Source: Bacteroidales bacterium (GTDB lineage Bacteria; Bacteroidota; Bacteroidia; Bacteroidales; UBA932). Taken from it: a stretch of 54,716 nt of DNA. Positions 21,735 through 41,915 of the stretch are shown one piece after another; within the stretch, counting starts at the first letter, position 1; each line of letters begins with the position of its first letter. The notes under the pieces are model-generated. The model ran no database searches. It saw only the letters and a list, made by a program, of their open reading frames with translations, and was not told the origin of the DNA. A program made the translations under genes and the position numbers. The stretch covers positions 1-54,716 of the forward strand of contig JAFZUX010000012.1 of assembly GCA_017618115.1 (NCBI GenBank). The letters run 5' to 3'.

Positions 21735-22613
21735 TTACTTGAACTTTGAATAATCAAACCAGATACCCAGGCACTTATCTGGAGTAGAGGCAAAAGTATG
21801 CCCCGTAATGTCACACCACCTATAATCAGCCCATCCTTTTTTAAAGATTTCAAAATGAACCACATCACTTGTAGTGCAAGTGAAGGAACTAAAATAAAAT
21901 GCAACACCCTCCTCATCATAAACACCTCCGGTCCATCCGGTAGAATTTGCTGTCAAAACAGAAGTTCCCAAATCATCAACACTAAACCCTTTAATAGCAA
22001 AAGGAAAATCAGAAGACTTATCACCAGCATTCTTCCATACATGCAACTGATAATCAGCAGCCTCAGCCTTATCTATTCCCTTAATCAAAACCTTAAACGT
22101 TGTCCTGAATTTCCAAGAAGATATATTTGATGTCAAAACACCTCCTGAATAGGTGTAGCCAATCCCGTCATTATAAAGCATTAACGGAGTACAATATGTC
22201 ACCTCATAAGGCCCAATGTACTTCCCGTAATCGTATTCAGACCTAATACCATTAGGTGTCCAATTATAGGATCCCAACCCATTATGTCCTTCATATACCA
22301 CAATCATAATTCCCGATGCAGAAGGAGTAATAGGTGAACCGCTCACTTTCCTTAAATCCCCTGGTACCCAATCAGTTCCGTTATAGGTAATAACCAAGTC
22401 CGGTGCCGCATGATCATATATGGTAATGTCACTGAACCAGATATTTATCTTATCTCCACTAACCCAGTCTTTCTTCATAGCTTTGCTCTCTCCACTAGGG
22501 GAAGCCACCTTAATATTGAGTTTAATGCCCTCATCTTTAACAGGTGCATCACTCTTTGTGCAAGCGATTAACGCCAATGCAACAACAGCCAAAATAAATA
22601 CACACTTTTTCAT
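21735..22613 (-). CDS. Short fimbrillin-like surface lipoprotein (pair 1)
   Basis: A 292-residue lipoprotein: signal peptide with lipobox LIAC, then TKSD, which fits a Bacteroidota surface-export signal. The single fimbrillin/Mfa-like domain starts with KKDWVSGDKINIWFSD (W-x-x-GD-x-I motif). There is no FISUMP-like domain; the C-terminus ends in a cysteine-poor KCLGIWFDYSKF motif shared with 23014-23949. The start codon overlaps the stop of the small ORF 22613-22756 by one base (TAATG), so translation is probably coupled. Role unknown; likely outer-membrane surface. Confidence 0.68.
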   Translation of the reverse strand: MKKCVFILAVVALALIACTKSDAPVKDEGIKLNIKVASPSGESKAMKKDWVSGDKINIWFSDITIYDHAAPDLVITYNGTDWVPGDLRKVSGSPITPSASGIMIVVYEGHNGLGSYNWTPNGIRSEYDYGKYIGPYEVTYCTPLMLYNDGIGYTYSGGVLTSNISSWKFRTTFKVLIKGIDKAEAADYQLHVWKNAGDKSSDFPFAIKGFSVDDLGTSVLTANSTGWTGGVYDEEGVAFYFSSFTCTTSDVVHFEIFKKGWADYRWCDITGHTFASTPDKCLGIWFDYSKFK

Positions 22614-22756
22614 TACATAAACCATTTAAAGGCATTCCAACTTTCCTCATCCGGCGTACCGTCATAAGGGTTAACTGAACTAACCGCTATCACCCCCTCA
22701 AGGGTAACAACATTTTCCTCGCATTCCGGCGCGAGATATTTTAGCTTTTGTTTCAT
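22613..22756 (-). CDS. Small lipoprotein-partner ORF, member 1
   Basis: A 47-residue peptide. It begins MKQKLKYLAPECEEN, has the core TLEGVIAVS and ends in PDEESWNAFKWFM. No signal peptide or membrane helix. Placement directly before a lipoprotein gene, with a TAATG overlap, and the family resemblance to ten other small ORFs in this window (Y-x-[SAT]-P, then E-G-V/I, then an acidic Trp-containing tail) argue that it is translated. Function unknown; peptide precursor, chaperone or leader peptide are all possible. Confidence 0.6.
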   Translation of the reverse strand: MKQKLKYLAPECEENVVTLEGVIAVSSVNPYDGTPDEESWNAFKWFM

Positions 22757-22816
22757 ATTATATTTTTGCAACCATTTGACCATCAGAAACCTCACCACCT
22801 CCCCCTAGCCCTTATG

Positions 22817-22847
22817 CAAATATCACAAATTTTGTCGTAAGAACAAA
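22817..22847 (-). promoter_or_regulatory. Promoter of pair 1 (GATATTTG type)
   Basis: On the minus strand TTTG (22844-22847), 19 bases, GATATTTG (22817-22824). The -7 box has one mismatch to TAnnTTTG and is shared by pairs 3, 5 and 11. Confidence 0.5.
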
Positions 22848-22950
22848 GAGAATTTCTCTGCCTGCTCATAATAATCAAGAGAGACTTCAGTTTCTTCTCT
22901 CTTTTTTATTATTCGAACGTTCCCTCTCCATTTCTCCATATAAGAAAACA

Positions 22951-22981
22951 AACAGAGCTCGGTAAGATAACGAGCTCTGTT
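22951..22981 (-). terminator. Terminator of lipoprotein gene 23014-23949
   Basis: AACAGAGCTCG (22951-22961) pairs perfectly with CGAGCTCTGTT (22971-22981). On the minus strand it is followed by TTGTTTTC. Confidence 0.75.
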
Positions 22982-23013
22982 GAAACGGTTTGTTTCTCTA
23001 TTCCGTATAATCT

Positions 23014-23949
23014 TTATTCATAATCACCGAATTGTGTGTAGTTAAGAAAGACACCTTTGCACTTATTAATGGTAGCGTCTATGGATTTTCCAGATAAACT
23101 ACAAGTCTTCTTACCCCTATATGAATCGTCATTATTATACTCGCATAATGTAAATGTGATTGTAGAAGGATTAGTACATGCAAACCTATAGTAATAGAAT
23201 GCAACTCCCTCATCATCAGCCACTCCACCAGTCCATCCATTGGCCATTCCGCCACCAAAATTAAATCCTTCCCCATAGACTAATTGAATATTTTGCATAC
23301 CTGAAGGAAACTCTTGGTCCGTGCCTGTGTGGGTTTCATTGTGAACTTTTAATTGATACTTACTTGAATTGGCAGAAGATAACCCTTTAATTAGAACTTT
23401 AAACTTAGTTAATGTTTTCCAACTCGACACTGGTGATGGAGTGGACAGGGTATTTGTTTCGGTAGAATAATTATAGGTAAAACCAGAACCGCCATTATCT
23501 GCTGCAACAACAAGGTTGCCACAATAAGTTGTTGCAGATTCCCCATAAACGGAGCGAGCTCCAGGAACGATATAAAAGATATCTCCCATATCAACATAAC
23601 CGTAGGAACCAATATCGTTGTGTCCTTCATACAAAAGATACATAACTCCAGTTGGTTTAAGAGTAACTCCACTTCTAAGAGATCCAGCTGTCCAAGTAAG
23701 AGGTGACGTGGATTCGCAAGTAATAATTAAATCTGGATTTTCGTGGTCGCTTGCAAAATTATTATCGAACCAAATATTCAATTTGTCTCCAACTTCCCAA
23801 CCGGTTTTAGCGGCCTTAGTATCAACCTCCGGATAATTTATCTTTAGATTCAAATTGATTACACCATATTTAGTAGGATTCTCATTCTTTGTGCATGAGG
23901 AAAATAACACAGCAACAACTGTTGAAAGTATTAAAATTAAATTTTTCAT
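23014..23949 (-). CDS. Short fimbrillin-like surface lipoprotein (pair 2)
   Basis: A 311-residue paralogue of 21735-22613. Lipobox FSSC is followed by TKNEN. The fimbrillin-like domain has KTGWEVGDKLNIWFDNN and VADDEGVAFYYYRFAC, ending KCKGVFLNYTQF. No FISUMP-like domain. The upstream Met at 23985 was rejected because MKNLILIL at 23949 begins a normal signal peptide. The small ORF 23973-24119 lies 23 bases upstream. No promoter on its own strand was recognised; see the inverted-repeat promoter at 24213-24312. Confidence 0.68.
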   Translation of the reverse strand: MKNLILILSTVVAVLFSSCTKNENPTKYGVINLNLKINYPEVDTKAAKTGWEVGDKLNIWFDNNFASDHENPDLIITCESTSPLTWTAGSLRSGVTLKPTGVMYLLYEGHNDIGSYGYVDMGDIFYIVPGARSVYGESATTYCGNLVVAADNGGSGFTYNYSTETNTLSTPSPVSSWKTLTKFKVLIKGLSSANSSKYQLKVHNETHTGTDQEFPSGMQNIQLVYGEGFNFGGGMANGWTGGVADDEGVAFYYYRFACTNPSTITFTLCEYNNDDSYRGKKTCSLSGKSIDATINKCKGVFLNYTQFGDYE

Positions 23950-23972
23950 GATCGTCAAATTTTGGTATTGAT

Positions 23973-24119
23973 TTAAGAGGTCCAATCCTCCTCACTTGGA
24001 GTACCATCCCAAGGATCGCCTGGGTCTACGTTTGAAATAGGGCTTTCTGCTATTACCCCTTCAAGGGTAACAGCATATTCATCGCATAGGGGTGCGTCAT
24101 ACTTTAGTTTTTCTTTCAT
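23973..24119 (-). CDS. Small lipoprotein-partner ORF, member 2
   Basis: A 48-residue peptide with MKEKLKYDAPLCDEY, the core TLEGVIAES and the tail PWDGTPSEEDWTS. It shares about two thirds of its first 25 residues with member 1. No signal peptide. It is the first ORF of the leftward operon, about 110 bases from the inverted-repeat arm at 24213-24229. No TAnnTTTG-like box was found in front of it in the present orientation. Confidence 0.6.
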   Translation of the reverse strand: MKEKLKYDAPLCDEYAVTLEGVIAESPISNVDPGDPWDGTPSEEDWTS

Positions 24120-24131
24120 AGTGATATGGAT

Positions 24132-24404: not shown

Positions 24405-24539
24405 ATGGTAACATCTAACAAAGAATTCTACGAAACTCCCTCGATGTTGATATTCGAGGTCAAGAGTGAGGGTGTAATCTGCGCTAGTGGAGACCCTTTA
24501 TACGATGGGTTGGGAGACGAAGAAGATATGGATAACTAA
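24405..24539 (+). CDS. Small lipoprotein-partner ORF, member 3
   Basis: A 44-residue peptide with NKEFYETPSMLIFE, the core KSEGVICAS and the acidic tail GLGDEEDMDN. No signal peptide. It precedes lipoprotein 24565-26070 by 25 bases. Its beginning MVTSNKEFYETP lacks the usual MK start, but the Y-x-[ST]-P and SEG-V-I-C motifs place it in the family. Confidence 0.58.
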   Translation: MVTSNKEFYETPSMLIFEVKSEGVICASGDPLYDGLGDEEDMDN

Positions 24540-24564
24540 TAAGAAATGTAAGGAGGACATCAAA

Positions 24565-26070
24565 ATGAAAAAATCATTGATTATTTTGGCGACCATCGCC
24601 TTCACATTAGTTTCCTGCAGCAAGGAAAACGCCGACATTATCCCGGATGACAACCCCGATTCTCAAACAAGTATAGTCTTTAATCTCACGGCTAAACACC
24701 CTGATGGTTCAGCAACCAAAGCGGTAAAAACTGGCTGGGAAAGTGGCGATGTAATCTACGTGTTCTTAAATAATGTAGTTGCTCCTAAGTATCTAAAGAT
24801 GAGCTACGACGGTTCGGCTTGGAACACCACTCAGATGAATGGGGCAACTGAGGAATCCCTTGGACTTGTAGAGGATGCTACCGGTACTATGCGTGCCGTT
24901 TATTTGCCTTTCGGAAATTCGCTCACTGTTGGTGCTGATGGTACATCGTTCACTTTCAGTGAAACCACTTATTCCTATTATCTGACAGCCACGCTTGACT
25001 ATACCGTTACTAGTGGAGAGGTATCAGGTGCATTTGAAATGGCAATTCCCGACGGCTACGTTCAGTTCTTCCTGGACGATGCAAGTGCTTCTTCCTCAAC
25101 GGAGATTGAACTACGCGAGCCTCACCTCACCCCGCAGGGCATTGCTTCCATCGCTGCTGATGGAACAATAATACACACCAACGTTGCGCATGGCGCTCCT
25201 CTAAAGGGTTATGTCTATGACAAAGCTGTCAAGGAAACTGGCGAATCCAAGGGTTACCTCTTCAGCGGCATCCTTGAGACCGGGGCAAGAAACACCTCCA
25301 CAAATTATGATTTCACAGTAGTTATCGGCGGCTGGGAGGGTACTTATTATGCCAAAGCCTTTACGGGGAAAACCTGGTATCGTGGAGCTTCTGAAGGCCG
25401 TGCTTTGAAGATGCCCGCACTCAGCGGCTGGACTACCATTACCAACTATCAACCCATCGATCTGGGTTGCGACGTTGACGGTAAGCGAATCTACTGGAGC
25501 AGTCGCAACCTGGGCGCTACATCCGATGGACCGGCAAATAGCTCTACCACCTATGGTAACTATTTCGCTTGGGGCGAGACGAAAAGTAAAACGAATTATC
25601 TATGGAGCACTTATGCTTGGGGCAGCGCAATCGATGAGCTTACCAAGTACAACTACGACAATAATTGCGGCACCGTTGATGGGCTCACTACCTTGGAACT
25701 TACTGACGATGCTGCCCACGAGAAACTGCATGGTATATGGCGCATGCCCACGGATGCCGAATGGACGGCACTAAGTAATACCACGGACTTCGACTGGGTA
25801 CCGGACGACACAAATAAAGGCTATACTGTAACAAGTAGGATAGCGGGTTACACGGATCGCTATATTTTCCTTCCTGCCGCGGGTTATATGTGGAACGACG
25901 AACTCCGAAAAGACGCTACGGAAGGCAGATACTGGTCTTCTTCTCTTGGTACTACGATGTATGACGAACCGGGCGCCGCGAATTATCTTAGTTTACAGTC
26001 CAGCGGTCACACTTACCCGAGTAAAGGAGAGCGTTCTAATGGATACTCTGTCCGTCCCGTCTCAGAATAG
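24565..26070 (+). CDS. Fimbrillin-like plus FISUMP lipoprotein (pair 3)
   Basis: A 501-residue lipoprotein: lipobox LVSC, then SKEN. Residues about 30-290 are fimbrillin-like (KTGWESGDVIYVFLNN). Residues about 300-501 form a FISUMP-type (C-type-lectin-like) domain: RIYWSSRNLGATS, YFAWGETKSK, LHGIWRMPTDAEWTALS, YIFLPAAGYMWN, RYWSSSLGT, GYSVRPVSE. The ATG at 24565 is preceded by AAGGAGG at 24550-24556, a Shine-Dalgarno-like site unusual for this phylum. The closest paralogue in the window is 30009-31562. Surface role and ligand unknown. Confidence 0.72.
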   Translation: MKKSLIILATIAFTLVSCSKENADIIPDDNPDSQTSIVFNLTAKHPDGSATKAVKTGWESGDVIYVFLNNVVAPKYLKMSYDGSAWNTTQMNGATEESLGLVEDATGTMRAVYLPFGNSLTVGADGTSFTFSETTYSYYLTATLDYTVTSGEVSGAFEMAIPDGYVQFFLDDASASSSTEIELREPHLTPQGIASIAADGTIIHTNVAHGAPLKGYVYDKAVKETGESKGYLFSGILETGARNTSTNYDFTVVIGGWEGTYYAKAFTGKTWYRGASEGRALKMPALSGWTTITNYQPIDLGCDVDGKRIYWSSRNLGATSDGPANSSTTYGNYFAWGETKSKTNYLWSTYAWGSAIDELTKYNYDNNCGTVDGLTTLELTDDAAHEKLHGIWRMPTDAEWTALSNTTDFDWVPDDTNKGYTVTSRIAGYTDRYIFLPAAGYMWNDELRKDATEGRYWSSSLGTTMYDEPGAANYLSLQSSGHTYPSKGERSNGYSVRPVSE

Positions 26071-26221: not shown

Positions 26222-27715
26222 TTAAACATCGTGAACATAGCGGATATGATTTCTCATACGGTTACTACCCCAGTCTACTTTAGGACCGGCATCCGGCCAT
26301 GTGAAATAATAACGATTGGATGTATTATACCAAGTCCAATAATAACCTTGATCAGCTCGAAAATCACTGCTATTATTCCACTTCCATCCTCCACTATAAG
26401 AAGCCGTACCTGTATTATATAGAAGCACAAATCCTTTCCCGATATATTTTAAGTAGTCTGTAACAGTACCAGAGGATATATCACTTCCGATATCGGAAGC
26501 TTGTGTCTCATCTGGAGGCAAAAGCAAACAATACAGGTGACCAGGAATGGTTATTTTATAATAACGATCAACTCCGACACTCATTGTTGTGCGGCTATTT
26601 ACTAGATAGTTCCATTCGTAAGTATCTACTCCGGAACCCAATCTTTTTGGAATTCTCCAATTATTTATTCCATAAAGAGAAAAATTTTCTCTTAAACCAG
26701 ATTCGAAATAAAAATCAAACCATGTTCGCTTTGAAACAGCCTTAGCATCAGTAGCATTATTATAATTCGTTGTATTGGTTTGTCCCCAATGAGTGAATGG
26801 CTCCGTAAATGAATAAATATATTGGCTATTAACAACCTCAGCACCCAAGTCTCCGGGCGAGAAGTATACTTTCTTGCCTGAAGCAACTGTAAAAGTATAG
26901 AGGTTAACGTCTACTGTAGGAGCGTAGAATTTGCCATTAAGAAATCCGCCGGATGGGGCAGTCTTGCTTCCCGAATAAACCTTTCCATTTTCATCAATAA
27001 CCTGAAAGACTATAACATCTCCAGGATTTGAGTCAAAGCGCAATGCTGAGTAAATGTAATTGTTTGGTAAATTGTCAGATCGTGAAATTGTAATTGGGCC
27101 ATAAGTGGGGGAGTTGGTCAAAACATTGTATTGGGATATCAACTTGTTATTCTCAGAGAAGATTCTTACGAATCGGATGCCGCTTATCTCATTACTACCG
27201 CACTTAAAAGTGAATTTAAATATGCTCTGAAGATTCTCGAGGGTTGCAGAAGATGTGGTAATGATATCGTCTGAAATACTAGTTATTACCACGTTTTCAC
27301 CCTTTCCGGCATCAATGACGTTATCAATTGAGCCATCTTGTGAAGAATAGTTAACAACACCGTCTTTGTTGGTGTTATACAAGACGGTTATGATATCTCC
27401 TGCGGCAAATGAGCTACCAGTAAATGTCCCAGTAAAGCTTATTGTTTCTTTGCCTTCAGATGCCGGATGAAGAGTGTCGTTAAAAATAGATCCCTCCTTA
27501 GCGATATAAACGTCTTCTGTAGTTTTGAAAGTAGATATAAGTTTATTATGATCACTATTCTCTGTTACAGCCTTAGTTGAAGGATTATTAACAGGAATAA
27601 TTATCCGATACTCCTTTATGGGGGCATTCTCACTTTGAGACTCTTTTGAACAAGAATCCAAACTTAGAGAAGCTATAATAGCAACCGCAAATATTAAACT
27701 AAAACACTTTTTCAT
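26222..27715 (-). CDS. Fimbrillin-like lipoprotein with distinct C-terminal domain (pair 4)
   Basis: A 497-residue lipoprotein: lipobox LDSC, then SKES. The N-terminal part is fimbrillin-like (TGSSFAAGDIITVLYN). The C-terminal part (about 285-497) has KKVYFSPGDLGAE, HLYCLLLPPDETQASDIG, GKGFVLLYNTG and the terminal block YYFTWPDAGPKVDWGSNRM followed by NHIRYVHDV. This C-terminal half is nearly shared with 35986-37863. The ATG at 27715 gives a normal signal peptide and has AAGGAG nine bases ahead. The small ORF 27736-27861 is 20 bases upstream. No own-strand promoter found. Confidence 0.7.
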   Translation of the reverse strand: MKKCFSLIFAVAIIASLSLDSCSKESQSENAPIKEYRIIIPVNNPSTKAVTENSDHNKLISTFKTTEDVYIAKEGSIFNDTLHPASEGKETISFTGTFTGSSFAAGDIITVLYNTNKDGVVNYSSQDGSIDNVIDAGKGENVVITSISDDIITTSSATLENLQSIFKFTFKCGSNEISGIRFVRIFSENNKLISQYNVLTNSPTYGPITISRSDNLPNNYIYSALRFDSNPGDVIVFQVIDENGKVYSGSKTAPSGGFLNGKFYAPTVDVNLYTFTVASGKKVYFSPGDLGAEVVNSQYIYSFTEPFTHWGQTNTTNYNNATDAKAVSKRTWFDFYFESGLRENFSLYGINNWRIPKRLGSGVDTYEWNYLVNSRTTMSVGVDRYYKITIPGHLYCLLLPPDETQASDIGSDISSGTVTDYLKYIGKGFVLLYNTGTASYSGGWKWNNSSDFRADQGYYWTWYNTSNRYYFTWPDAGPKVDWGSNRMRNHIRYVHDV

Positions 27716-27735: not shown

Positions 27736-27861
27736 TTACTCGCCATCCCCCAATATTATCGTCCAAGTTGCCAACTCATAATCATCACGACTGGTACAAA
27801 CCATTTTTTCTGTTTCTACCTGGAGGGTTTCAATTTCAGGTGTTTTGTAATCTTTTTTCAT
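27736..27861 (-). CDS. Small lipoprotein-partner ORF, member 4
   Basis: A 41-residue peptide: MKKDYKTPEIETLQVE, core ETEKMVCTS, tail WTIILGDGE. It is the most divergent member (E-K-M-V in place of E-G-V-I), but it keeps Y-x-x-P-E, the C-T-S block, the acidic end and its position before a lipoprotein. No signal peptide and no recognisable promoter in the present orientation. Confidence 0.52.
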   Translation of the reverse strand: MKKDYKTPEIETLQVETEKMVCTSRDDYELATWTIILGDGE

Positions 27862-28069: not shown

Positions 28070-28201
28070 ATGAAGACCAAGACAAAACCAAAAGAATTCT
28101 ATGAATCTCCTGCGGTGGCTATCCTCGAGTTCAAAAGTGAAGGAATAATTTGCACCAGTGACCAAGATGGTGAAGGAGAGGGCTATGAAGGCTGGGATTA
28201 A
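28070..28201 (+). CDS. Small lipoprotein-partner ORF, member 5
   Basis: A 43-residue peptide: basic start MKTKTKPKEFYESPAVAILE, core KSEGIICTS, then an acidic Gly-rich tail ending YEGWD. No signal peptide. It precedes lipoprotein 28223-29827 by 21 bases. Its start resembles members 9, 10 and 11 (T-K-P-K-E-[FI]-Y), matching the grouping of their lipoprotein partners. Confidence 0.62.
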   Translation: MKTKTKPKEFYESPAVAILEFKSEGIICTSDQDGEGEGYEGWD

Positions 28202-28222: not shown

Positions 28223-29827
28223 ATGAAAAAGATATTCATTTATACCGCAATATTTGTAACAATTGCAACAGCTTGCAGCAAATTAGAGAATAAGCCTATC
28301 CAAAAAGGAGATGAGAAGGATTCAGACGTTAAGATGGTAACAGAAAAAGTAACTGGAACCCGTGAGTCTTCCTCTAAGGTTACTATATCAAATGATGCAA
28401 CTCCAGCATTCTCTTGGACAGTTGGTGATAACATTGCCGTTCATGTAACTAACGGCGTCACAAACAAGTATGTCTTCACCTCAGACGCAGGTGCATCCGG
28501 CGCCTCGACATCAGCTGCAACAGCCTCTTTTACTGTTGCTTATGAAGAGGGGTATGCTCGCGATGCATTTGCAATTTACCCTAGTACCATAGTAAGTGCT
28601 TCTGCTGCCAATTATGGTCAGAGTGGACAACCGCTTGATGTGACACTTCCTTCTAGCTACACATTAGATCAGGTAACAGGAACAACCTCCCCTTGTCCGA
28701 TGATAGCAACCAATACCGCCGGCTCCGGTTGGACATTCAAACAACTCTGCGGCTTACTTCGTTTAACAGTAAACAACATTCCACCTAGTGCAAAACGTTT
28801 GGAAATAGACTTTGATGGCAAAAAGGTTAGCGGAGATTTTTCTCTTGCAGCGCCTGTTTCCCCGGAAACGTCTTTCATTGCAACATCTGATGACGAAACT
28901 CACGATATCATTACTATTATAAAAGATGGCTCTGACGTAACTCTAAATAACAATGCTTGGTTGGACGGGTTGGTTCTCAACATTTCACTCCCGACGGGTA
29001 CCTACACCAATATAATCATTACTGCTTACGATGCACTTAGCGGAGGGAAAGCCTTACTTTCTATGACTCGCCCTTTCGCCTATACGGCATCCAAAACGCG
29101 CGGCAAGAAACAGACTGCATCCTTCCCCGTTTTCTCTGTAAGCGCCTCAAAAAGAGTACTTTTCGCCCCGGGGAATCTTCAATATAACTCTGTTGAGACT
29201 CCAAAATGGCGTTTTGCTGAGCACCAGTACACAATGATAGGTGCTGCTAGGTGGAGTACCTCAGGTTGGATGGATGCCTTTGGTTGGGGCACATGGACAG
29301 GTGATTCTCCAAATCCAACAAATACTTCAACTAATTCTTCTGATTATACATGGGATTCAAAAGATTTTGTTGGTGACCCTACTGGTAATGGTTACACATG
29401 GTACACTCTGTCGCAAAGTGAATGGTCTTATCTTATAAGCCGCTCTTATATTGTTACTATTACAGATCTCGGCACAGGTGTTTATGGTGCCATATTACTT
29501 CCAGATGATTGGCCTTCTCCCACTTCACTACCAACTCTGACTAATATCAGAACATATGATGCTGGAAACAAAATCACATTGGACCAATGGAAGGGATTTG
29601 AGAATTATGGTGCCGTATTTCTTCCTGCGGCAGGCAACTATAGTAAAAACTCACCTTATGATAATAATAATCCTAACAAATTGCGTTATTTATCAGGAAC
29701 ATCCAAAGATGGCACAAATGCGTACATTTTTAAAAGCAACAATAGTAAATATACACCAGCTATTGAAGTTAACTATGATGTAAAGGCTTCGAAATTTTCA
29801 GTCCGCTTGGTTCGAGAAGTTGAATAA
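28223..29827 (+). CDS. Fimbrillin-like plus FISUMP-like lipoprotein (pair 5)
   Basis: A 534-residue lipoprotein: MKKIFIYTAIFV signal, lipobox ATAC, then SKLEN. The N-terminal domain has TPAFSWTVGDNIAVHV, EEGYARDAFAIYPS, SPCPMIATN and QLCGLLRLTVN, shared with the lipoproteins at 35986, 38192 and 39994. The C-terminal FISUMP-like domain has KRVLFAPGNLQYN, WRFAEHQYTMIG, DAFGWGTW, GAVFLPAAGNYS and the terminus KFSVRLVREVE. A start at 28211 (MDIIMKK) is possible; 28223 gives the normal signal peptide. Confidence 0.72.
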   Translation: MKKIFIYTAIFVTIATACSKLENKPIQKGDEKDSDVKMVTEKVTGTRESSSKVTISNDATPAFSWTVGDNIAVHVTNGVTNKYVFTSDAGASGASTSAATASFTVAYEEGYARDAFAIYPSTIVSASAANYGQSGQPLDVTLPSSYTLDQVTGTTSPCPMIATNTAGSGWTFKQLCGLLRLTVNNIPPSAKRLEIDFDGKKVSGDFSLAAPVSPETSFIATSDDETHDIITIIKDGSDVTLNNNAWLDGLVLNISLPTGTYTNIIITAYDALSGGKALLSMTRPFAYTASKTRGKKQTASFPVFSVSASKRVLFAPGNLQYNSVETPKWRFAEHQYTMIGAARWSTSGWMDAFGWGTWTGDSPNPTNTSTNSSDYTWDSKDFVGDPTGNGYTWYTLSQSEWSYLISRSYIVTITDLGTGVYGAILLPDDWPSPTSLPTLTNIRTYDAGNKITLDQWKGFENYGAVFLPAAGNYSKNSPYDNNNPNKLRYLSGTSKDGTNAYIFKSNNSKYTPAIEVNYDVKASKFSVRLVREVE

Positions 29828-31574: not shown

Positions 31575-31733
31575 TTAAAAAAAGAATGGGAATGGAGCGC
31601 CCCAGGATTCATCCTCGTCGCCTCCTACATTGTCAAAGCCTATATAGCCATCTTCACTGGTGGCTATGACTCCTTCTGTAACCATTTTGATTATATCGCA
31701 CTCAGGCGATGTGTAAAACAATTTCTTCTTCAT
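31575..31733 (-). CDS. Small lipoprotein-partner ORF, member 6
   Basis: A 52-residue peptide: MKKKLFYTSPECDIIK, core VTEGVIATS, acidic stretch GGDEDESW and an aromatic end GAPFPFFF. No signal peptide; the Phe-rich end is shared with members 7 and 8. A TAACTTTG -7 box lies at 31790-31797, about 57 bases before the start. Confidence 0.6.
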   Translation of the reverse strand: MKKKLFYTSPECDIIKMVTEGVIATSEDGYIGFDNVGGDEDESWGAPFPFFF

Positions 31734-33627: not shown

Positions 33628-33792
33628 TTAAAAGAAGAACGGTGCTCCGCCACCGCCAAAGTTAAACGGATCTCCACCGTTATCAAAGTTACCAGGACCT
33701 CCAACTCCACCACCGCTTTCACAAACGACGCCTTCACTGATTATCTCTAGAACGTCTGTCTCCGGAGATAAGTAAAATTGTTTTGTTTTCAT
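33628..33792 (-). CDS. Small lipoprotein-partner ORF, member 7
   Basis: A 54-residue peptide: MKTKQFYLSPETDVLEI, core ISEGVVCES, then a Gly-rich run with GGDPFNFGGGGAPFFF at the end. It is nearly identical to member 8. No signal peptide. The Gly/Phe tail and the Cys in the core are the features most like a peptide precursor, but no modification enzyme is nearby. Confidence 0.65.
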   Translation of the reverse strand: MKTKQFYLSPETDVLEIISEGVVCESGGGVGGPGNFDNGGDPFNFGGGGAPFFF

Positions 33793-34039: not shown

Positions 34040-35683
34040 TTAGTTCAACTCATGTACTAAACGGACAGATATACCGTAACGTTTAAAAGTTCTGTTGTGC
34101 GGATCAAATCCGTCATTGCTGAATCTCAGGCAGTAATTTTCGTCATCATCATAAATTGAACTTGAAGCATAGTAGCCGGTTGGATCATCTGTATAACCAT
34201 AGCCGCCCTCAATGAAGTAGAGATAATTACTATATCTAAAGCCGCCAACTGGGAGGAATACACAGCCCGCATTTTCAAGATTCGTCCAACCCGCAGAGGT
34301 TACTGTAGCTCCCCAACCTTTGGCTCCACTATTTGCATAGTTACCATTACTGATAGTATTGGTGTTCCATGTTACACCACTAGGCGTACCGCCGGCATAG
34401 CGATCTGGAAAAATGATAAAACCCTTAATTTCATTCACAGTTGCTTTTGTACACAAAACATTCAATATGGCCAATGTAGAACCACCGGTGTTAATTACAA
34501 TCTGTCCACCACGTTTTCTATAATTTTCATGATTGATCTCATCTTTTCCGGTCAAATACTTCCATTCCGGATCTGATAAGGTTTTCCAATAGTTCTTGCC
34601 GCGTCCCCCAATATTGTTATTACCCCAGTCTACAAAAGAACCTGAATAATCGCCCGAGCCCATATCAATGCCATAACTCGGCGCAGACGTGCTAAATCCA
34701 AAGAGATCAACTGTACCACTAGATGTTGATAAAGTTCCTTTACCATTTACTGCAATATTACCTGAATTTACGCCAATAATGTCATATTGGTGAGTCGCAA
34801 AATTCCAAGTCCAATTTGAGCCATCATATGAAGCCTGTAAGTTACCCGGAGCAATGATAACTCGCTTAGTATCACTTACTGAGAATACATGCACTTCATC
34901 CATTGCAAGCCCTTCTGTTCTATACAATTTTCCCGATGCCAAAGTAACACCGCTTTTCTCTTTCATATACGCCTTTGTTGCTGTAAGGGCAGCAATGCTT
35001 ACATATTTAGGAGTTGCACTTCCGTTGAGCGCTACATAAATGTATTCCAACGAAGATGGTTTTACAACATATTTTTCAGAACCAGAGTCAGAGCCTAAGA
35101 AAACGCTGAGTGTTGTCACACTGCTAGTTATATCGGTAGCACCATCTTTTAATGAGAACTTCCAGATGCAAATGCTTGGAGTCATTGTCACTCCTGTAGG
35201 AAGGGTTGCATCTCCTCCCGATACGGTTAGCGTACCTGTACCGCTGCTGGCTGCGTAGTTGTCCTTTATATTTTCAAGCGTGCCTATCTGGTTGGCCTTC
35301 AGGTCTGTATCGTTATGCCAATAGTTGTACGGGAAACCAAAAGTGATAGTACTTGCATCCTTAGGGTCAGTCATTGTAACACTAATGGTTGCGTTACCGC
35401 TTCCATCTACTGCCGTTACAGTTGCCTGAGCTTCAACGTCTTCATTGGATGTGTTTTTATACTTAACCCAGATGTAATCACCCACTTCCCAAGTTGTTAA
35501 TATGGTTCCGTCACTGGTTTCATTCATAACAGTTTTTGTATTGATTCCAGGAGCCGGTGCCAAAGAGGTAACCAATGTAACCTCGTTATTTTCAGAAACC
35601 ACCGAGTTGTCCTCTTTTGTGCAGGCTGTAAAAGTTGTTACAACCAGCGCAAGAACTCCTAAAATATATTGTGTTGCTTTCAT
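34040..35683 (-). CDS. Fimbrillin-like plus FISUMP-like lipoprotein (pair 8)
   Basis: A 547-residue lipoprotein: lipobox FTAC, then TKEDN. The N-terminal part closely follows 31919-33604 (TVMNETSDGTILTTWEVGDY, FGFPYNYWHND). C-terminal domain: KRVIIAPGNLQASYD, WNFATHQYDIIG, DLFGFSTSAP, YWKTLSDPEWKYL, GCVFLPVGGFRYSN, GYYASSSIYDDDENYCLRFS and terminus YGISVRLVHELN. The duplicated 5' module with a divergent 3' domain suggests recent duplication followed by exchange or selection on the exposed part. Confidence 0.72.
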   Translation of the reverse strand: MKATQYILGVLALVVTTFTACTKEDNSVVSENNEVTLVTSLAPAPGINTKTVMNETSDGTILTTWEVGDYIWVKYKNTSNEDVEAQATVTAVDGSGNATISVTMTDPKDASTITFGFPYNYWHNDTDLKANQIGTLENIKDNYAASSGTGTLTVSGGDATLPTGVTMTPSICIWKFSLKDGATDITSSVTTLSVFLGSDSGSEKYVVKPSSLEYIYVALNGSATPKYVSIAALTATKAYMKEKSGVTLASGKLYRTEGLAMDEVHVFSVSDTKRVIIAPGNLQASYDGSNWTWNFATHQYDIIGVNSGNIAVNGKGTLSTSSGTVDLFGFSTSAPSYGIDMGSGDYSGSFVDWGNNNIGGRGKNYWKTLSDPEWKYLTGKDEINHENYRKRGGQIVINTGGSTLAILNVLCTKATVNEIKGFIIFPDRYAGGTPSGVTWNTNTISNGNYANSGAKGWGATVTSAGWTNLENAGCVFLPVGGFRYSNYLYFIEGGYGYTDDPTGYYASSSIYDDDENYCLRFSNDGFDPHNRTFKRYGISVRLVHELN

Positions 35684-35706: not shown

Positions 35707-35880
35707 TTAAAAGAAGAAAGGTGCTCCACCGCCACCACCAAAGTTAAATGGATCTCCACCATTACCAAAGTCACCGGGACTTCCAACTCCACCACCGCTT
35801 TCACATACTACACCTTCGCTAATTATCCCTAGAACGTCTGTCTTTGGAGATAAGTAAAATTGTTTTGCTTTTGTTTTCAT
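35707..35880 (-). CDS. Small lipoprotein-partner ORF, member 8
   Basis: A 57-residue peptide: MKTKAKQFYLSPKTDVLGI, core ISEGVVCES, Gly-rich tail with GGDPFNFGGGGGAPFFF. It differs from member 7 at only a few positions and by three added residues. I chose the Met at 35880 because it matches the family start. No signal peptide. Confidence 0.65.
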   Translation of the reverse strand: MKTKAKQFYLSPKTDVLGIISEGVVCESGGGVGSPGDFGNGGDPFNFGGGGGAPFFF

Positions 35881-35985: not shown

Positions 35986-37863
35986 TTATTCAACGTCGCG
36001 AACATAACGAATATGATTTCTCATTTTGTTAGAACCCCAATCGACCTTAGGACCAGCATCTGGCCAAGTGAAATAATAACGATTAGAACTAGTAAAGTAA
36101 GCCCAATAAAATCCCTGCTTAGCATAAGAGCCAGTGCTACTGCCCCAAGACCACTTATTATTAGAGTACAGTCCTCTATTTGTATTAAAAAGAAGCACAA
36201 ATCCTTTTCCAAGATATTTTGCGTAGTCAGTAACAGTTCCCTCGGTTAAATCCTCGCCGATATCGGAAGCTTGTGTCTCATCAGGAGGTAAAAGCAAGCA
36301 GTACTGATGATCAGGAATGGTAACTTTATAGTAAGGATCAACACCACTATCCAAATTTGTGCGATAAACTAAATTGTTCCACTGATACGGTTTTGGAACT
36401 CCCGGAAAACTGGTCTCACTCGCACCTAGATTTTTCCAAGTTATTCCATAAACTGTATTAGTAGCAAGGCCACTGTCTATATACATATCAAACCATACTC
36501 GTTTTGTAGGAGCAGTTGAACTTATGTTTCCATGTTCCCAATCGGTAAAAGGTTCTGTAAATGAATATACTCCATTATCAACGCCCAAGTCACCAGGGGA
36601 GAAGTATACTTGTTTACCTGTGGTTTCCACAGTAAATTTATAGTCTTTAACAGTCACTGTCAGAGCATAGATCTTCCCCATTTCAAAGCCACCATCCGGG
36701 GCATTATATAAACCGGAATATACCTTTCCGTCAGCAGTTACTACCTGGAATGCAAGCTGGTCGTTGCCGGATGTAAATTTAAGCATGGCTTTAACAGGAT
36801 TGTTCATATCTGTCGCACTGGAAACTGTATAAGGACCGTATGTTGAACCACTATACAACTTATTATTGCAAGAGAACAGACGTACAAATCTAAGGTTATT
36901 ATTTAAAGGATTGTTGCTATTGTTACCATCCTCAAAGGTAAATGAGAAAATACTTTGATCGTCACTAAGAGTTATTGTCCTTTTAACGCCTTTTGTATTT
37001 TTTGCCTGATAGTTAAATGATAAAATGCCTACTTTGAGAGAGTTTCCTCCACTTATAGCATCATACGCAACAACGTATATGTTAGAATAGTCTCCGGTTG
37101 GAAGTGAAACATTCAGCACTAGACTATTTCCTTCATTCAAAAGAGGAACGTCTGTTCCATCTTTGGTAATTGTGATAGTAGTTGAATTACTACCACTGGC
37201 ATTTGATAATGCAATTGTAGATGTGCCATCTCCCTTTACTGGAGATGGGATGGTAAAATTACCTGCCACATTCTTTCCGTCAAAATCAATTTCCAATCGT
37301 TTGGTGCCAGCAGGAATGCTATTTACGGTAAGACGCAATAGACCACAGAGCTGATAGAAATCCCAACGGGTTCCTGTGTTGTAGGCTATCATAGGACAAG
37401 GAGACTTTTCTCCGTTCGCATCCGTCACTTGATCAAGTGTATAGTTAGCTGGAAGCGTTACATCAAGGGAAGTGCCACTCTGACCATAATTGGAAGCAGA
37501 AGCATTTACTATGTTACTTGGGTAAATGGCAAATGCATCGCGAGTATATCCCTCTTCATAAGTTACTGTGAAAGAAGCAGAAGGTTCTGCAACGTCCGCC
37601 CCGGAAGAGGTAACATACTTATGGTCATCGCCCTTTGAAACATGAACGGCAACAGCATCACCTACACTCCATTTGAAAATTGAAGCATTATCGTTATCAA
37701 TTGTTGCCTTAGAGGATACCTTACGGCCACCTGAGATCTTTTCTGTTATCATAACCACGTCAGAATCCGGCTCTTGTCCCTTCTGAATAGGCTCGTTCTC
37801 TAATTTGCTACATGAAAGTGTAATAGCTGCAAGCAGGGAGGTATAAATAATTATCTTTTTCAT
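35986..37863 (-). CDS. Chimeric fimbrillin-like lipoprotein (pair 9)
   Basis: A 625-residue lipoprotein, the longest of the cluster: lipobox TLSC, then SKLENE. The first roughly 310 residues follow the 28223/38192/39994 subfamily (EEGYTRDAFAIYPSNI, SPCPMIAYN, YQLCGLLRLTVNSIP). The remainder follows 26222-27715 (FTFEDGNN, KQVYFSPGDLG, CLLLPPDETQASDIG, YYFTWPDAGPKVDWGSNKM). It therefore looks like a fusion of two subfamilies. Small ORF 37883-38008 is 19 bases upstream. No promoter was recognised before it. Confidence 0.72.
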   Translation of the reverse strand: MKKIIIYTSLLAAITLSCSKLENEPIQKGQEPDSDVVMITEKISGGRKVSSKATIDNDNASIFKWSVGDAVAVHVSKGDDHKYVTSSGADVAEPSASFTVTYEEGYTRDAFAIYPSNIVNASASNYGQSGTSLDVTLPANYTLDQVTDANGEKSPCPMIAYNTGTRWDFYQLCGLLRLTVNSIPAGTKRLEIDFDGKNVAGNFTIPSPVKGDGTSTIALSNASGSNSTTITITKDGTDVPLLNEGNSLVLNVSLPTGDYSNIYVVAYDAISGGNSLKVGILSFNYQAKNTKGVKRTITLSDDQSIFSFTFEDGNNSNNPLNNNLRFVRLFSCNNKLYSGSTYGPYTVSSATDMNNPVKAMLKFTSGNDQLAFQVVTADGKVYSGLYNAPDGGFEMGKIYALTVTVKDYKFTVETTGKQVYFSPGDLGVDNGVYSFTEPFTDWEHGNISSTAPTKRVWFDMYIDSGLATNTVYGITWKNLGASETSFPGVPKPYQWNNLVYRTNLDSGVDPYYKVTIPDHQYCLLLPPDETQASDIGEDLTEGTVTDYAKYLGKGFVLLFNTNRGLYSNNKWSWGSSTGSYAKQGFYWAYFTSSNRYYFTWPDAGPKVDWGSNKMRNHIRYVRDVE

Positions 37864-37882: not shown

Positions 37883-38008
37883 TTATTCCCATTCATCATC
37901 ATAACCATGGCCCTCACCACTTTGACATACGATACTTTCTGTGATTAACTTAAGAACCTCTGTCTCTGGAGAGATATAAATCTCCTTTGGTTTCATTTTG
38001 GTCTTCAT
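37883..38008 (-). CDS. Small lipoprotein-partner ORF, member 9
   Basis: A 41-residue peptide: MKTKMKPKEIYISPETEVLK, core LITESIVCQS, acidic tail ending YDDEWE. E-S replaces E-G in the core. AAAGGAG lies ten bases before the ATG. No signal peptide, and no TAnnTTTG-like box in the preceding 100 bases. Confidence 0.6.
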   Translation of the reverse strand: MKTKMKPKEIYISPETEVLKLITESIVCQSGEGHGYDDEWE

Positions 38009-38191: not shown

Positions 38192-39757
38192 CTATTCGTG
38201 AATTAGACGAACGGAGCAATAATAAGCATAGGTAGTAGAAGGGGTCTTATTTTCAGAACTTTCACTATAACCACAATCGTAGAAATTCAAATAATAAGCC
38301 TTACTGGGACCATCCTCAGTCGTATACCAATAATATCCATTATCACCGGCCTCATCCCAATATTCACCCATATATCCCACAGAACAATATCCTGAAGCGG
38401 GCAAGAATACAAATCCTTTAGAAATGTAAGTTTCTAAATCAACATCTTCTGTTATGTAATCTTTGTCTTCTTCCAAATCCGCCACATCTATTAACGTCGC
38501 TCCGTCAGGTGGAAGCAACATACCAATCTGGTCTCCATCACTACCTAAATCAACTATATAGCATCTGTGAACCCCTGTATTCATCGTCCGACCATCAAAA
38601 TATAAATAGTTCCACTCATCAAATGTCATAGCTTTCCAACCTAAAATACCGTTAACCGTGAACGGACGAGGAGTTTCGCTTGCTGTTGCTATTTCATTCC
38701 AAGTAAAGTAGCCGCGTGCAGATGTTTCTAATGGTGAGCTATTATAACCAAGGCTTCCACCATTGGTATTGAAAGGCTTGGCTTCAAAAGCATAAGTCTC
38801 ACTGCCGCTACCAACTGTGTATGCCGCATCTGTCTTAACCAAGTTGCCGGGGGAGAAGAATACTTTCTTTGTATCACTGACAGAGAATGATACCATTGCT
38901 GTCGTAAGCTTCTTGGCATGAGCGCGTTTAGCAGAGTATGGAACGGTAGGAGCACTTATGCTATTAATGTTACGGATTGCAGCCACTTTAGTCGTACTAC
39001 CTACTGGCGTGATGTACAAATAATCATACGTGCCCGTAGGCAGCGGAATGTTAACGGTCGCAGTCGTGGTTCCGACTGCGAAGGTAATGGTGATTTTGTC
39101 TTCGCCGTCAGCAGGAGTGTCTGTGGCTATTATGGATGTGCCTGGCGTAACGGCAGACGCGATGGAGAAGGCTCCATTGACCTTCTTGCCCGGGAACTGG
39201 ATTACCATACCGGTCGCATCGGAGGGGATGCTATTCACCGTTAGGCGCAACAGGCCACAGAGCTGGCTAAAGGTCCAGCCGTTGCCAGCCTCGTTGGTGG
39301 CAATCATCGGGCAAGGAGTCTTGGTTTCACTTACCTCAGCCAGTGTATAGCTGGCGGGCAGAGTTACATCAAGGGCCGTGCCGCTTTGGCCATAGTTTGC
39401 CGCATCCGTTGCCACAATAGAGGCGGGATAGATAGCGAAGGCATCACGTGATTGACCATCGGGATAGGTGACACTAAATGTTGCAGATTTACTGCCGCCA
39501 GATGCAAGTGCCGTTGTTGTATAGTATTGTCCGTTATTTACATGAACGGCCAGTTGATCTCCAGTACTCCATGTAAACTTGGCATCAGCATCAATGTCTG
39601 CCTTTGAGGACGGATCTACATTGGCTGAAACTTTCTCAGTAATCATTACTACATCAGAGTCTGGGTCTACATCCTTCTGGAGAGGTTCATTTTCTAATTT
39701 GCTGCAAGCGGTTGCAACTGTTGCAAGTATTGCTGTATAAATGAATATCTTTTTCAT
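38192..39757 (-). CDS. Fimbrillin-like plus FISUMP-like lipoprotein (pair 10)
   Basis: A 521-residue lipoprotein: MKKIFIYTAILATV signal, lipobox ATAC, SKLENE. The N-terminal domain has DAKFTWSTGDQLAVHVNN, SRDAFAIYPASIV, CPMIATNEAGNGWTFSQLCG. The C-terminal domain has KKVFFSPGNLVKTD, LLPPDGATLIDVADL, GFVFLPASGYCSVG, YYWYTTEDGP and the terminus YYCSVRLIHE. Several Cys residues near the C-terminus (CGYS, YYCSV) are unusual among the paralogues. Small ORF 39770-39901 is 12 bases upstream. Confidence 0.72.
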   Translation of the reverse strand: MKKIFIYTAILATVATACSKLENEPLQKDVDPDSDVVMITEKVSANVDPSSKADIDADAKFTWSTGDQLAVHVNNGQYYTTTALASGGSKSATFSVTYPDGQSRDAFAIYPASIVATDAANYGQSGTALDVTLPASYTLAEVSETKTPCPMIATNEAGNGWTFSQLCGLLRLTVNSIPSDATGMVIQFPGKKVNGAFSIASAVTPGTSIIATDTPADGEDKITITFAVGTTTATVNIPLPTGTYDYLYITPVGSTTKVAAIRNINSISAPTVPYSAKRAHAKKLTTAMVSFSVSDTKKVFFSPGNLVKTDAAYTVGSGSETYAFEAKPFNTNGGSLGYNSSPLETSARGYFTWNEIATASETPRPFTVNGILGWKAMTFDEWNYLYFDGRTMNTGVHRCYIVDLGSDGDQIGMLLPPDGATLIDVADLEEDKDYITEDVDLETYISKGFVFLPASGYCSVGYMGEYWDEAGDNGYYWYTTEDGPSKAYYLNFYDCGYSESSENKTPSTTYAYYCSVRLIHE

Positions 39758-39769
39758 GGCTATTTCAGT

Positions 39770-39901
39770 TTAAGAATCCCACTCCATATCTTCTCCGCCA
39801 GCATTCTGGTTGCTGGTTGTCATAATACCTTCACTCAGAAGTTCATAAACTTCGGTAACGGGAGAGAGGTAAATCTCCTTTGGTTTTGTGTTGGCCATCA
39901 T
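39770..39901 (-). CDS. Small lipoprotein-partner ORF, member 10
   Basis: A 43-residue peptide: MMANTKPKEIYLSPVTEVYE, core LLSEGIMTTS, tail ending GGEDMEWDS. A start at the second Met (39898) is equally possible. From the YLSP motif on it is identical in protein to member 11, and nearly identical in DNA. No signal peptide. Only a weak -7-like match was seen upstream. Confidence 0.62.
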   Translation of the reverse strand: MMANTKPKEIYLSPVTEVYELLSEGIMTTSNQNAGGEDMEWDS

Positions 39902-39993
39902 TGTGTGTATTTATTTGATGTTGTGCAATTTATGGTTGTGCACTTAATTGGTTATTGTTTTGTTTCTTCAATAATTATTAGTTCTCTGAGGGT

Positions 39994-41601
39994 CTAATTT
40001 GCTGATTTTATGAGGCGGACAGGGTAATAAATGTTGGAATTAAGGGACTGGCTGGACTCTTTAATTGATATTGTAATTACCGAGGTAACGGCAAAATGAA
40101 AAAACCTTTCTAAAGATTCATCAGGCATATAATAGTCTGTTAAGTAAGCCCATGGCATTGATATCGGCCCCGTAAAGGTTCGGCCAGGCATATAATTACC
40201 CGTACCAGGCAGGAATACACAACCATAGTTTGAAATTAGATAATTAAGAACCGATAAATTTATGGTACTTAAATTCTCTATATTCTTTTTTCCGACATTT
40301 GAAGTTACAATATCCGGACAAACAATATGAGCGCCATCTCTTAGCAATACTAAGCCAATAATATCTACGTCTGTATCAACTACATTGACAAAAATAAAGC
40401 AACCTCGTTGACTATTGACGGGATCTCCTGTTATGGAAGTCCCATTAAAATAAATGGCTGTTTGAGGGTTGCTCCAAACAAAAGCTCCCCACTCGGACTG
40501 AGATGGTAACTTCCAACCAGCAGGAAGTTTTGAGAGTTCCGCACTTATTGTTGAAGCCCTGAAATAGTATTTATTAACGGAAGAACTTTGGCCAAAATAA
40601 CCCAAGAATTCGGTGGGATTACCTTCTGTAAAAGAATAAGTAACATTGACACCATCATCTTCTCTCTTTAGGGTGCCTGGGGCTATCCAATAACCACGGA
40701 AGGCCAATTTTGTATTATCTACAGTAACCTTCTTGCCGTGAGCTCTTTGTGCGGTATAAGTAGGGGATGGATTTAAGGTTGTAGGGGCGGTACTGCTGAG
40801 GTATTTAATTACCTCTGACAATTGTTCTGATGTGCTGTTAAGATAGGATACAGCAATTTTTTCATACTCGCCAACCGGGAGTGGGATATTGATTGTGGCT
40901 GAGGTCAGTCCGGTCATTCCGGTAACAGTAATCTTATCCTCTGTAGTAGAAGAAGCTGTTGCAATGGTTGAAGTTCCAGGATTTGGGGTTGCAATAGAAA
41001 AGTTTCCGCAAACCTTCTTTCCTTTGAAGTCCAGCAAAATAGAGGCAGTTCCGGATGGTATGTTCTCTATCGAGAGGCGGAGTAAACCGCAGAGCTGTTT
41101 GAATGTCCAACTTGCTCCTGTATTATCTGCAATCATTGGGCAAGGGGTGGTTTCACCAGTCACTTTAGCAAGGGGATAACTTGCCGGAAGGGTTACCGTA
41201 AGTGTGCTTGTGCCGGTGTTGTACGAGTCTGCGTTTACGATAGTGCTCGGGTAAACAGCAAAGGCATCACGGGTATATCCTTCGTCATAGGCAACCGTAA
41301 ATGAGGCTGAGGGGCCGGAAGTGGAGGCTCCTTGTGCTCCAGCATCTGATGTGAATACAAATTTTGGAGTTGCCCCATCAGTAACGTGAACTGCTATGTT
41401 GTCACCTTCAGTCCATGAGAAGGTTGCTCCTTCATTAGCAATTGTTGCCTTTGACGCTGGATCCACGCTGCCGGAAACTTTCTCAAATATCATTTTTACC
41501 CCACTAGGATCTTTGACTTCCTGAGAAGATTCGTTATCTAATTTGCTGCAAGCAGTTGCAACTATTGCAAGTATTGCTGTATAAATGAATATCTTTTTCA
41601 T
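39994..41601 (-). CDS. Fimbrillin-like lipoprotein with divergent C-terminal domain (pair 11)
   Basis: A 535-residue lipoprotein: signal MKKIFIYTAILAIV, lipobox ATAC, SKLDNE. The N-terminal domain follows the pair 5/9/10 subfamily (GATFSWTEGDNIAVHVTDG, DEGYTRDAFAVYPS, TPCPMIADN, QLCGLLRLSIENIPSG). The C-terminal part has FRGYWIAPGTLKRED, LPAGWKLPSQSEWGAF, GCVFLPGTGNYMPG and ends IYYPVRLIKSAN, a FISUMP-like pattern with a long unconserved insert. Small ORF 41614-41745 is 12 bases upstream. Confidence 0.7.
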   Translation of the reverse strand: MKKIFIYTAILAIVATACSKLDNESSQEVKDPSGVKMIFEKVSGSVDPASKATIANEGATFSWTEGDNIAVHVTDGATPKFVFTSDAGAQGASTSGPSASFTVAYDEGYTRDAFAVYPSTIVNADSYNTGTSTLTVTLPASYPLAKVTGETTPCPMIADNTGASWTFKQLCGLLRLSIENIPSGTASILLDFKGKKVCGNFSIATPNPGTSTIATASSTTEDKITVTGMTGLTSATINIPLPVGEYEKIAVSYLNSTSEQLSEVIKYLSSTAPTTLNPSPTYTAQRAHGKKVTVDNTKLAFRGYWIAPGTLKREDDGVNVTYSFTEGNPTEFLGYFGQSSSVNKYYFRASTISAELSKLPAGWKLPSQSEWGAFVWSNPQTAIYFNGTSITGDPVNSQRGCFIFVNVVDTDVDIIGLVLLRDGAHIVCPDIVTSNVGKKNIENLSTINLSVLNYLISNYGCVFLPGTGNYMPGRTFTGPISMPWAYLTDYYMPDESLERFFHFAVTSVITISIKESSQSLNSNIYYPVRLIKSAN

Positions 41602-41613
41602 AGCTGTTTCAAT

Positions 41614-41745
41614 TTAAGAATCCCACTCCATATCTTCTCCGCCAGCATTCTGGTTGCTGGTTGTCATAATACCTTCACTCAGAAGTTCGTAAACTTCGGT
41701 AACAGGAGAGAGGTAAATCTCCTTTAATCTTGTTTTGGTTTCCAT
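41614..41745 (-). CDS. Small lipoprotein-partner ORF, member 11
   Basis: A 43-residue peptide: METKTRLKEIYLSPVTEVYE, core LLSEGIMTTS, tail GGEDMEWDS. From YLSP onward the protein is identical to member 10. No signal peptide. A GATATTTG box lies at 41769-41776, 23 bases upstream. Confidence 0.62.
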   Translation of the reverse strand: METKTRLKEIYLSPVTEVYELLSEGIMTTSNQNAGGEDMEWDS

Positions 41746-41905: not shown

Positions 41906-41915
41906 GGATAGATTC

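Follow-up and report, generated by a model that had tools for sequence, protein, structure and literature searches.

Contig JAFZUX010000012.1 of a Bacteroidales bacterium (assembly GCA_017618115.1; the 54,716 nucleotides that were analysed are termed the window) carries eleven small open reading frames (ORFs) of 41 to 57 codons between positions 21,735 and 41,745. They are found on both strands, each located just before a lipoprotein gene. The small ORFs very probably encode precursors of ribosomally synthesized and post-translationally modified peptides (RiPPs), which would be processed by a single cassette of genes acting in trans and then exported, each peptide working with its own lipoprotein. 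To judge by the genes involved, an LPP-like RiPP system (LPP, for linear polyphosphorylated peptides, being a class published for Bacillota) with many in-trans precursors in Bacteroidales is well supported, and it is unlikely that the ORFs are artefacts or mere leader ORFs. Comparison of sequences establishes the architecture of the presumptive precursors, selection on their reading frame, their pairing with lipoprotein genes, their co-occurrence and occasional co-localization with the cassette, and the gene content of that cassette. The partnership between peptide and lipoprotein is most likely but unproven.

Peptide architecture and pairing with lipoproteins

Residues K8, Y11, P14, E24 and S30 are invariant in an alignment of the eleven peptides. 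A profile of the peptides has 27 matches in the source genome, the weakest with an E-value of 0.02, comprising the eleven in the window and 16 elsewhere. Because 16 further members are found in the same genome, the ORFs of the window are not chance occurrences. At E ≤1, matches were present in 25 of 41 genomes, the source genome included, although several are weak. The deduplicated family has 172 members, of which 128 are from the genus of the source organism, 38 from other genera, and 6 from named records; given how short the profile is, the numbers outside the genus are minimum values. The genomes of the genus are 82-96% complete, and that of the source is 89% complete.

The motif YxxP occurs in 127 of the 128 genus members. 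A Glu residue at +13 from the Tyr (113 of 127) and a Ser at +18 to +20 (122 of 127) are nearly as common, where it should be noted that the profile itself favours the columns of all three features. The sequence behind the conserved Ser is variable, with a core of median length 17 amino acids when counted behind Tyr+19. Among the 122 members with an exported partner, every tail is net negative and 119 include an aromatic residue; their 2152 residues comprise 635 Asp/Glu and 21 Lys/Arg, with one Cys. A RiPP precursor joins a constant leader to a variable core, and the peptides are read as such. In the available text of two reports, PqqD-type RiPP recognition element (RRE) proteins bind leaders by means of YxxP (PMC10368454; PMC13381572).

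The reading frame of the small ORFs is under purifying selection, a property that the original prediction had set as a check. The ratio of nonsynonymous to synonymous differences (pN/pS) is 0.27 in frame, compared with 1.09 and 1.97 in the two other frames, which served as controls; the estimate uses 69 non-independent pairs selected by DNA identity. A dN/dS calculation (nonsynonymous relative to synonymous substitution rates) with pairs selected by protein identity gave 0.18 for the leader and 0.21 for the core, and was rejected in favour of the DNA-selected pairs because that selection biases it.

Searches of Pfam and NCBIfam yielded no credible match for ten of the eleven window peptides, the tenth peptide, nearly identical to the eleventh, being omitted. 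No match to the window peptides was found by profile search of the PDB, and a plasmid protein search with peptide 9 gave one match, with an E-value of 3. Viral contigs searched with a four-row peptide alignment contained no relative. Loose matches to the Bacteroidales -7 promoter pattern are located upstream of five of the eleven small ORFs. Separately, four solo members (L056, L072, L154 and L155, in genomes G317 and G135) have a tail that ends like YRNSLWGDDE and no ORF close downstream.

Within the genus, a lipoprotein with a signal peptidase II signal is encoded by the next gene for 118 of 126 evaluable members. Four other members precede a gene whose product has either a different export signal or the atypical lipobox, three precede another gene, one has no ORF behind it (meaning none of at least 100 amino acids that starts between 60 nucleotides before and 300 nucleotides behind the stop), and two more lie at a contig end. 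The rule for lipoproteins was a custom regular expression, which rejected one atypical lipobox (LDSC, 26222-27715); applied to a control of 258 genes in genus stretches chosen by PqqD, it called 36 of them lipoproteins. The predicted enrichment next to lipoproteins in other genomes is therefore present in the genus but does not extend at this strength to other genera, in which a lipoprotein is next for 18 of 37 evaluable members, while 13 have no close ORF and 6 precede another gene.

The original prediction placed each small ORF from -1 to +25 nucleotides before its lipoprotein gene, and the coordinates bear this out. Such gaps fit translational coupling, and together with the near-constant pairing in the genus they could suggest a cis-acting leader ORF, translation of which regulates or raises that of the lipoprotein while the peptide has no later role. 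However, the in-frame conservation of amino acids just described and the constant composition of the tails speak against this explanation, as do the association of the family with an RRE/kinase/peptidase cassette (see below) and the members that lack a downstream lipoprotein or precede a radical SAM maturase. We consider such a leader ORF very unlikely, although translational coupling may operate alongside the production of RiPP precursors.

Peptides and lipoproteins appear to have been inherited together, as had been predicted. The close peptide pairs 7/8 and 10/11 are present, and distances among peptides correlate with those among lipoproteins over 117 units (Mantel r = 0.63, p = 0.0005), a correlation for which physical linkage could account in part. 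Where the partner is complete (78 units), the correlation between the peptide core and the N-terminal 120 residues of the mature lipoprotein is 0.64, compared with 0.34 for the core and its own leader and 0.36 for the core and the lipoprotein C-terminus. This suggests a match between the core and the lipoprotein's N-terminal domain, although part of the signal could stem from linkage and from the limited variability of the leader.

The 87 complete partners listed range from 280 to 1019 amino acids. Pfam matches among 65 partners from other loci include LRR_4 (6), Mfa_like_1 (4), cleaved adhesin (3), and laminin-G-like (3) models, so that the domains detected include fimbrillin-like, leucine-rich repeat (LRR)/BspA, cleaved-adhesin and laminin-G-like ones. 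Ten of the eleven window partners were scanned: at E 0.01, eight lack any Pfam match, and the matches of the other two are all below the cut-off. AlphaFold models of two partner lipoproteins are poor, with mean pLDDT (predicted local distance difference test) values of 39 and 41. The partners had been expected to be fimbrillin or FISUMP lipoproteins; four of the 65 support this expectation, but the variety of domains indicates that partners go beyond these families. No small peptide is known to us as a cognate of Mfa-like fimbrillin or other adhesin-like lipoprotein families.

Numerous variable peptides, each linked to one exported protein and associated with RiPP-type machinery, are also what might be expected of bacteriocin-like peptides whose lipoproteins are immunity proteins or decoys. 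Immunity proteins are usually small, whereas these partners are large and some have adhesin domains. Moreover, the cores are strongly acidic, and 27 matches occur in a single genome, so that a bacteriocin-like function seems unlikely.

The presumed processing cassette and its distribution

The candidate processing genes encode a discrete PqqD-type RRE protein, an HprK-like kinase, a signal-peptidase-like protease, an ABC (ATP-binding cassette) exporter, and, in some genomes, a nucleoside triphosphate (NTP) transferase. The RRE gene matches PF05402 (PqqD) above the cut-off, and the only significant match of the RRE profile in the PDB is TfuB1, a lasso leader-binding protein. The kinase has a GxSGxGKSTH P-loop that, with many other residues, is invariant in 12 sequences, and it matches named families below the cut-off only. 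Residues Ser33, His70 and Gly84-Asp85 of the protease are invariant in 11 sequences, in keeping with the catalytic Ser and His expected of an LPP-type peptidase, and its matches to archaeal-type signal peptidase I are below the cut-off. The exporter comprises ABC_membrane and ABC_tran domains with no C39 domain, and MsbA-like models are among its best matches, below the cut-off. An ORF inside the cassette matches NTP_transf_5 in all six cases that were scanned.

Twenty stretches around PqqD genes were analysed in the genus. A kinase is present in 15, and kinase, protease, PqqD and exporter together in 12; within the stretch, the exporter is missing from L193, the protease from L205, and both from L206. 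Two of the 20 are radical SAM loci. Outside the genus, all four genes lie within the stretch in 13 of 17 genomes with a strong kinase match. Seventeen kinase-bearing genus genomes have one kinase match, and G023 has two, one of which has an internal stop. The source genome has one kinase match and one PqqD match, and its cassette, at about G000:C25:133051-136270, is not on the contig of the window. A weak relative of the Phocaeicola massiliensis PqqD, with 30-32% identity, is present in two phage records without annotation (MT835698.1 and MT835590.1) that derive from human faeces.

Peptides and kinase tend to occur in the same genomes. Among 25 genomes of the genus, 17 have both, G006 has only the peptide, G024 has only the kinase, and 6 have neither (Fisher p = 0.00026, peptide E ≤0.03). 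A draw of 295 genomes from the order, with the source genome omitted, gave 9 with both, 4 with only the peptide, 8 with only a strong kinase match (E < 1e-30), and 273 with neither (p = 4e-10); a peptide match in G269, located inside a 370-amino-acid frame, was treated as false. Two other tables were set aside: one based on any PqqD (17/1/2/5, p = 0.0022), which mixes cassette types and is superseded by the kinase tables, and an order table (11/4/7/273, p = 1.3e-12) that includes the source genome and the doubtful G269.

Peptide genes also adjoin the cassette in five genomes (G023, G016, G043, G254 and G137), where some stretches were picked to span both. The order in G023 is peptide, lipoprotein, PqqD, kinase, protease, and in G043 the peptide is immediately upstream of the kinase. 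The clearest single locus joining precursor, lipoprotein and the five cassette genes is on a Phocaeicola massiliensis plasmid (record OY725995.1), in which precursor, lipoprotein, PqqD, NTP transferase, ABC exporter, kinase and protease genes are consecutive. The lipoprotein there has about 1,090 amino acids and lies 168 to 204 nucleotides from the precursor, depending on the start.

Leaders of this family appear to work with more than one kind of RRE enzyme. Two of the three genus members that precede a non-lipoprotein gene precede a radical SAM maturase. In G004 and G011 (L191:7977-9932 and L192:9238-11201), which also possess the main kinase cassette, the family's YxxP leader bears a Cys-rich tail, and genes for a radical SAM/SPASM maturase (closest to TIGR04463, below the cut-off) and PqqD come next. 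These Cys-tailed precursors with their maturase appear to be a second RiPP type with a common leader.

The original prediction listed peptide precursor, export chaperone, regulator and leader peptide as possible roles, and among them only the first gained support, from co-occurrence with the cassette and occasional adjacency to it. A role in the cytoplasm as export chaperone or folding partner for the lipoprotein, independent of RiPP machinery, would account for one-to-one pairing, for covariation of peptide and lipoprotein, and for the lack of signal peptides. It would not account for the association with an RRE cassette, for the radical SAM loci at which a family leader is joined to a Cys-rich tail, or for solo members, and is extremely unlikely.

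Several observations weigh against a cassette that serves all of the peptides, or against pairing as a general rule. Lipoproteins follow only about half of the evaluable members outside the genus, as given above. Both co-occurrence tables ignore kinship among genomes, and at a peptide cut-off of E ≤0.01 the genus table is weaker (14/1/4/6, p = 0.0068). Peptides occur without a strong kinase match in G190, G263 and G317, and with only a weak one in G062. Conversely, no peptide was matched at E 1e-3 in seven genomes that have a strong kinase match, nor was any found in G024, whose cassette is full. No precursor adjoins the cassette in the source genome, and no NTP transferase was found in that genome, which is 89% complete; L244 and L248 have a different ORF at the position of this gene. 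Prevotella oral taxon 299 has kinase, protease and RRE, but its peptide match is weak (E 0.23), which at this sensitivity speaks against a universal link.

A plasmid of Butyrivibrio, a member of the Bacillota, contains a 57-amino-acid ORF, in which both YxxP and Glu-Gly-Val occur, between a kinase gene on one side and genes for PqqD and an S24/S26 peptidase on the other. This arrangement hints at a leader common to Bacteroidales and Bacillota. However, the Glu-Gly-Val lies one residue farther from the Tyr, at +14 to +16, and the peptide profile does not recognize the ORF. The resemblance across phyla is therefore a hint rather than proof.

The eleven pairs and their surroundings

Coordinates of the eleven pairs are given in Table 1.

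Table 1. Small ORFs and partner lipoprotein genes in the window. The gap is the distance from the small ORF to the lipoprotein start.
Feature	Coordinates	Strand	Length (amino acids)	Gap (nucleotides)	Basis or remark
Small ORF 1 (precursor-like peptide)	22613..22756	-	47		Alignment and genome profile match
Partner lipoprotein 1	21735..22613	-		-1	
Small ORF 2	23973..24119	-	48		Alignment and genome profile match
Partner lipoprotein 2	23014..23949	-		23	
Small ORF 3	24405..24539	+	44		Alignment and genome profile match
Partner lipoprotein 3	24565..26070	+		25	
Small ORF 4	27736..27861	-	41		Lowest-scoring of the eleven in the profile search
Partner lipoprotein 4	26222..27715	-		20	Atypical lipobox LDSC
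Small ORF 5	28070..28201	+	43		Alignment and genome profile match
Partner lipoprotein 5	28223..29827	+		21	
Small ORF 6	31575..31733	-	52		Alignment and genome profile match
Partner lipoprotein 6	30009..31562	-		12	Weak FISUMP-like C-terminus, below cut-off
Small ORF 7	33628..33792	-	54		Alignment and genome profile match
Partner lipoprotein 7	31919..33604	-		23	
Small ORF 8	35707..35880	-	57		Alignment and genome profile match
Partner lipoprotein 8	34040..35683	-		23	
Small ORF 9	37883..38008	-	41		Alignment and genome profile match
Partner lipoprotein 9	35986..37863	-		19	
Small ORF 10	39770..39901	-	43		Alignment and genome profile match
Partner lipoprotein 10	38192..39757	-		12	
Small ORF 11	41614..41745	-	43		Alignment and genome profile match
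Partner lipoprotein 11	39994..41601	-		12	

The whole cluster is enclosed by a 30-nucleotide inverted repeat (87%) at 21632-21661 and 41885-41914. Its 21-nucleotide core has nine copies in the genome with at most two mismatches, one of them at 43564-43584, so the flanking sequences may be copies of a dispersed repeat and not mark a site of inversion. The 21-nucleotide repeat is found directly downstream of both minus-strand ORFs at 41916-43259 and 43585-45075, the first of which presumably encodes a DUF4143-type AAA ATPase. Two neighbouring ORFs at 19817-21656, beside the cluster, resemble what we take to be an AbiEi/AbiEii-type toxin-antitoxin pair. A SAM-II riboswitch on the minus strand at 16000-16058 exceeds the Rfam gathering score.

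Relation to known systems and a proposed role

The most similar published system is that of the LPP peptides, whose clusters, in the available text of the report, encode a signal-peptidase-like peptidase, a discrete RRE, an HprK-like kinase, an NTP transferase, and an MsbA-like exporter (Popov et al. 2026, PMC13381572). LPP precursors have a YxxP leader; Ser3 of the core is phosphorylated, and LppS removes the leader with the help of the RRE. The same text calls LPP restricted to Bacillota and, as far as it is available, does not contain "Bacteroid" or "lipoprotein" (PMC13381572). Both systems have the peptidase, RRE, kinase and exporter genes, joined here in some genomes by an NTP transferase, and small YxxP precursors with a conserved Ser and a variable C-terminus; neither has a cyclase, as judged here from the source genome, which is 89% complete. 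In contrast to LPP clusters, which are described from Bacillota with one to three precursors each and often lie by capsule loci, the present system is found in Bacteroidales, has up to 27 scattered precursor matches per genome, presumably served in trans, and in the genus has precursors that are mostly paired with lipoproteins and have short, acidic cores. Against equating the two, the LPP leader motif YxxPxVLxHQxIxFETxxS shares YxxP with the family, but its middle differs. The system is filed as LPP-like, not LPP, because of this difference behind YxxP.

Phosphorylated lasso peptides (the Bsf group in PMC10368454, and paeninodins as mentioned in PMC13381572, to the extent that these texts are available) are also alike in having a PqqD-type RRE, a YxxP/WxxP-type leader, a kinase, a nucleotidyltransferase and an ABC exporter. 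The small ORFs might then be lasso peptide precursors, as the YxxP leader, the closeness of PqqD to lasso RREs, and the occurrence of kinase and nucleotidyltransferase in lasso clusters (available parts of PMC10368454 and PMC7533575) would suggest. However, the source genome, at 89% completeness, has no match to the Asn-synthase-like macrolactam cyclase (PF00733), and the lasso B2 cysteine protease (PF13471) is above the cut-off in two of 41 genomes, neither in the genus, although weak matches (E 3e-4 to 8e-3) occur in many genus genomes. A lasso peptide is the least probable of the explanations considered here.

The available part of a RiPP-mining study reports Bacteroidales peptides with GG leaders and C39 transporters, which are likewise small precursors with a conserved leader (PMC10352776). 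In contrast, the present family has no common double-Gly, although Gly runs occur behind the Ser in some members (7 and 8), and the exporter of the cassette in the source genome has no C39 domain; the one C39 match in the source genome is on a different contig. Adhesin-like lipoproteins, including fimbrillins, share with partners outside the window their matches to Mfa_like_1, LRR, cleaved adhesin and laminin G domains. The peptides and their pairing with lipoproteins were undescribed in the literature searched, including the available parts of PMC7470986, PMC12710340 and PMC7533575, with subscription journals thinly covered. An LPP-like system in Bacteroidales, with many in-trans precursors per cassette and pairing with adhesin-like lipoproteins, therefore appears to be new.

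On the favoured explanation, each small ORF would encode a RiPP-type precursor with a leader of about 25-30 residues that includes YxxP, followed by a short acidic core with aromatic residues. It would be the first gene of a pair with an adhesin-like lipoprotein gene, with which it is probably co-transcribed. The PqqD-type RRE protein would bind the YxxP leader and present it to the kinase and protease; the HprK-like kinase would phosphorylate the conserved Ser, and the signal-peptidase-like protease would remove the leader, by analogy with LPP just before that Ser. The MsbA-like ABC protein would then export the product, and a single cassette on another contig would serve all 27 precursors in trans. 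Once outside, the mature peptide most likely acts at the cell surface with its partner lipoprotein, perhaps on the N-terminal domain. A more specific version, which we offer tentatively and regard as somewhat doubtful, is a modular surface system in which one cassette would modify, trim and export dozens of different acidic peptides, and each mature peptide would bind or attach to the cognate N-terminal domain and become part of an adhesin, being neither antibiotic nor signal.

If correct, these proposals would provide a testable biochemical role for a Bacteroidales small-ORF family that has no credible match in Pfam or NCBIfam. They would also extend to a further phylum a RiPP class published for Bacillota, and tie such peptides to surface adhesins. 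Because one cassette would act in trans on many precursors, searches for gene clusters that are centred on modifying enzymes would overlook the majority of products. An experimental entry point could be the Phocaeicola massiliensis record, which comes from a named strain.

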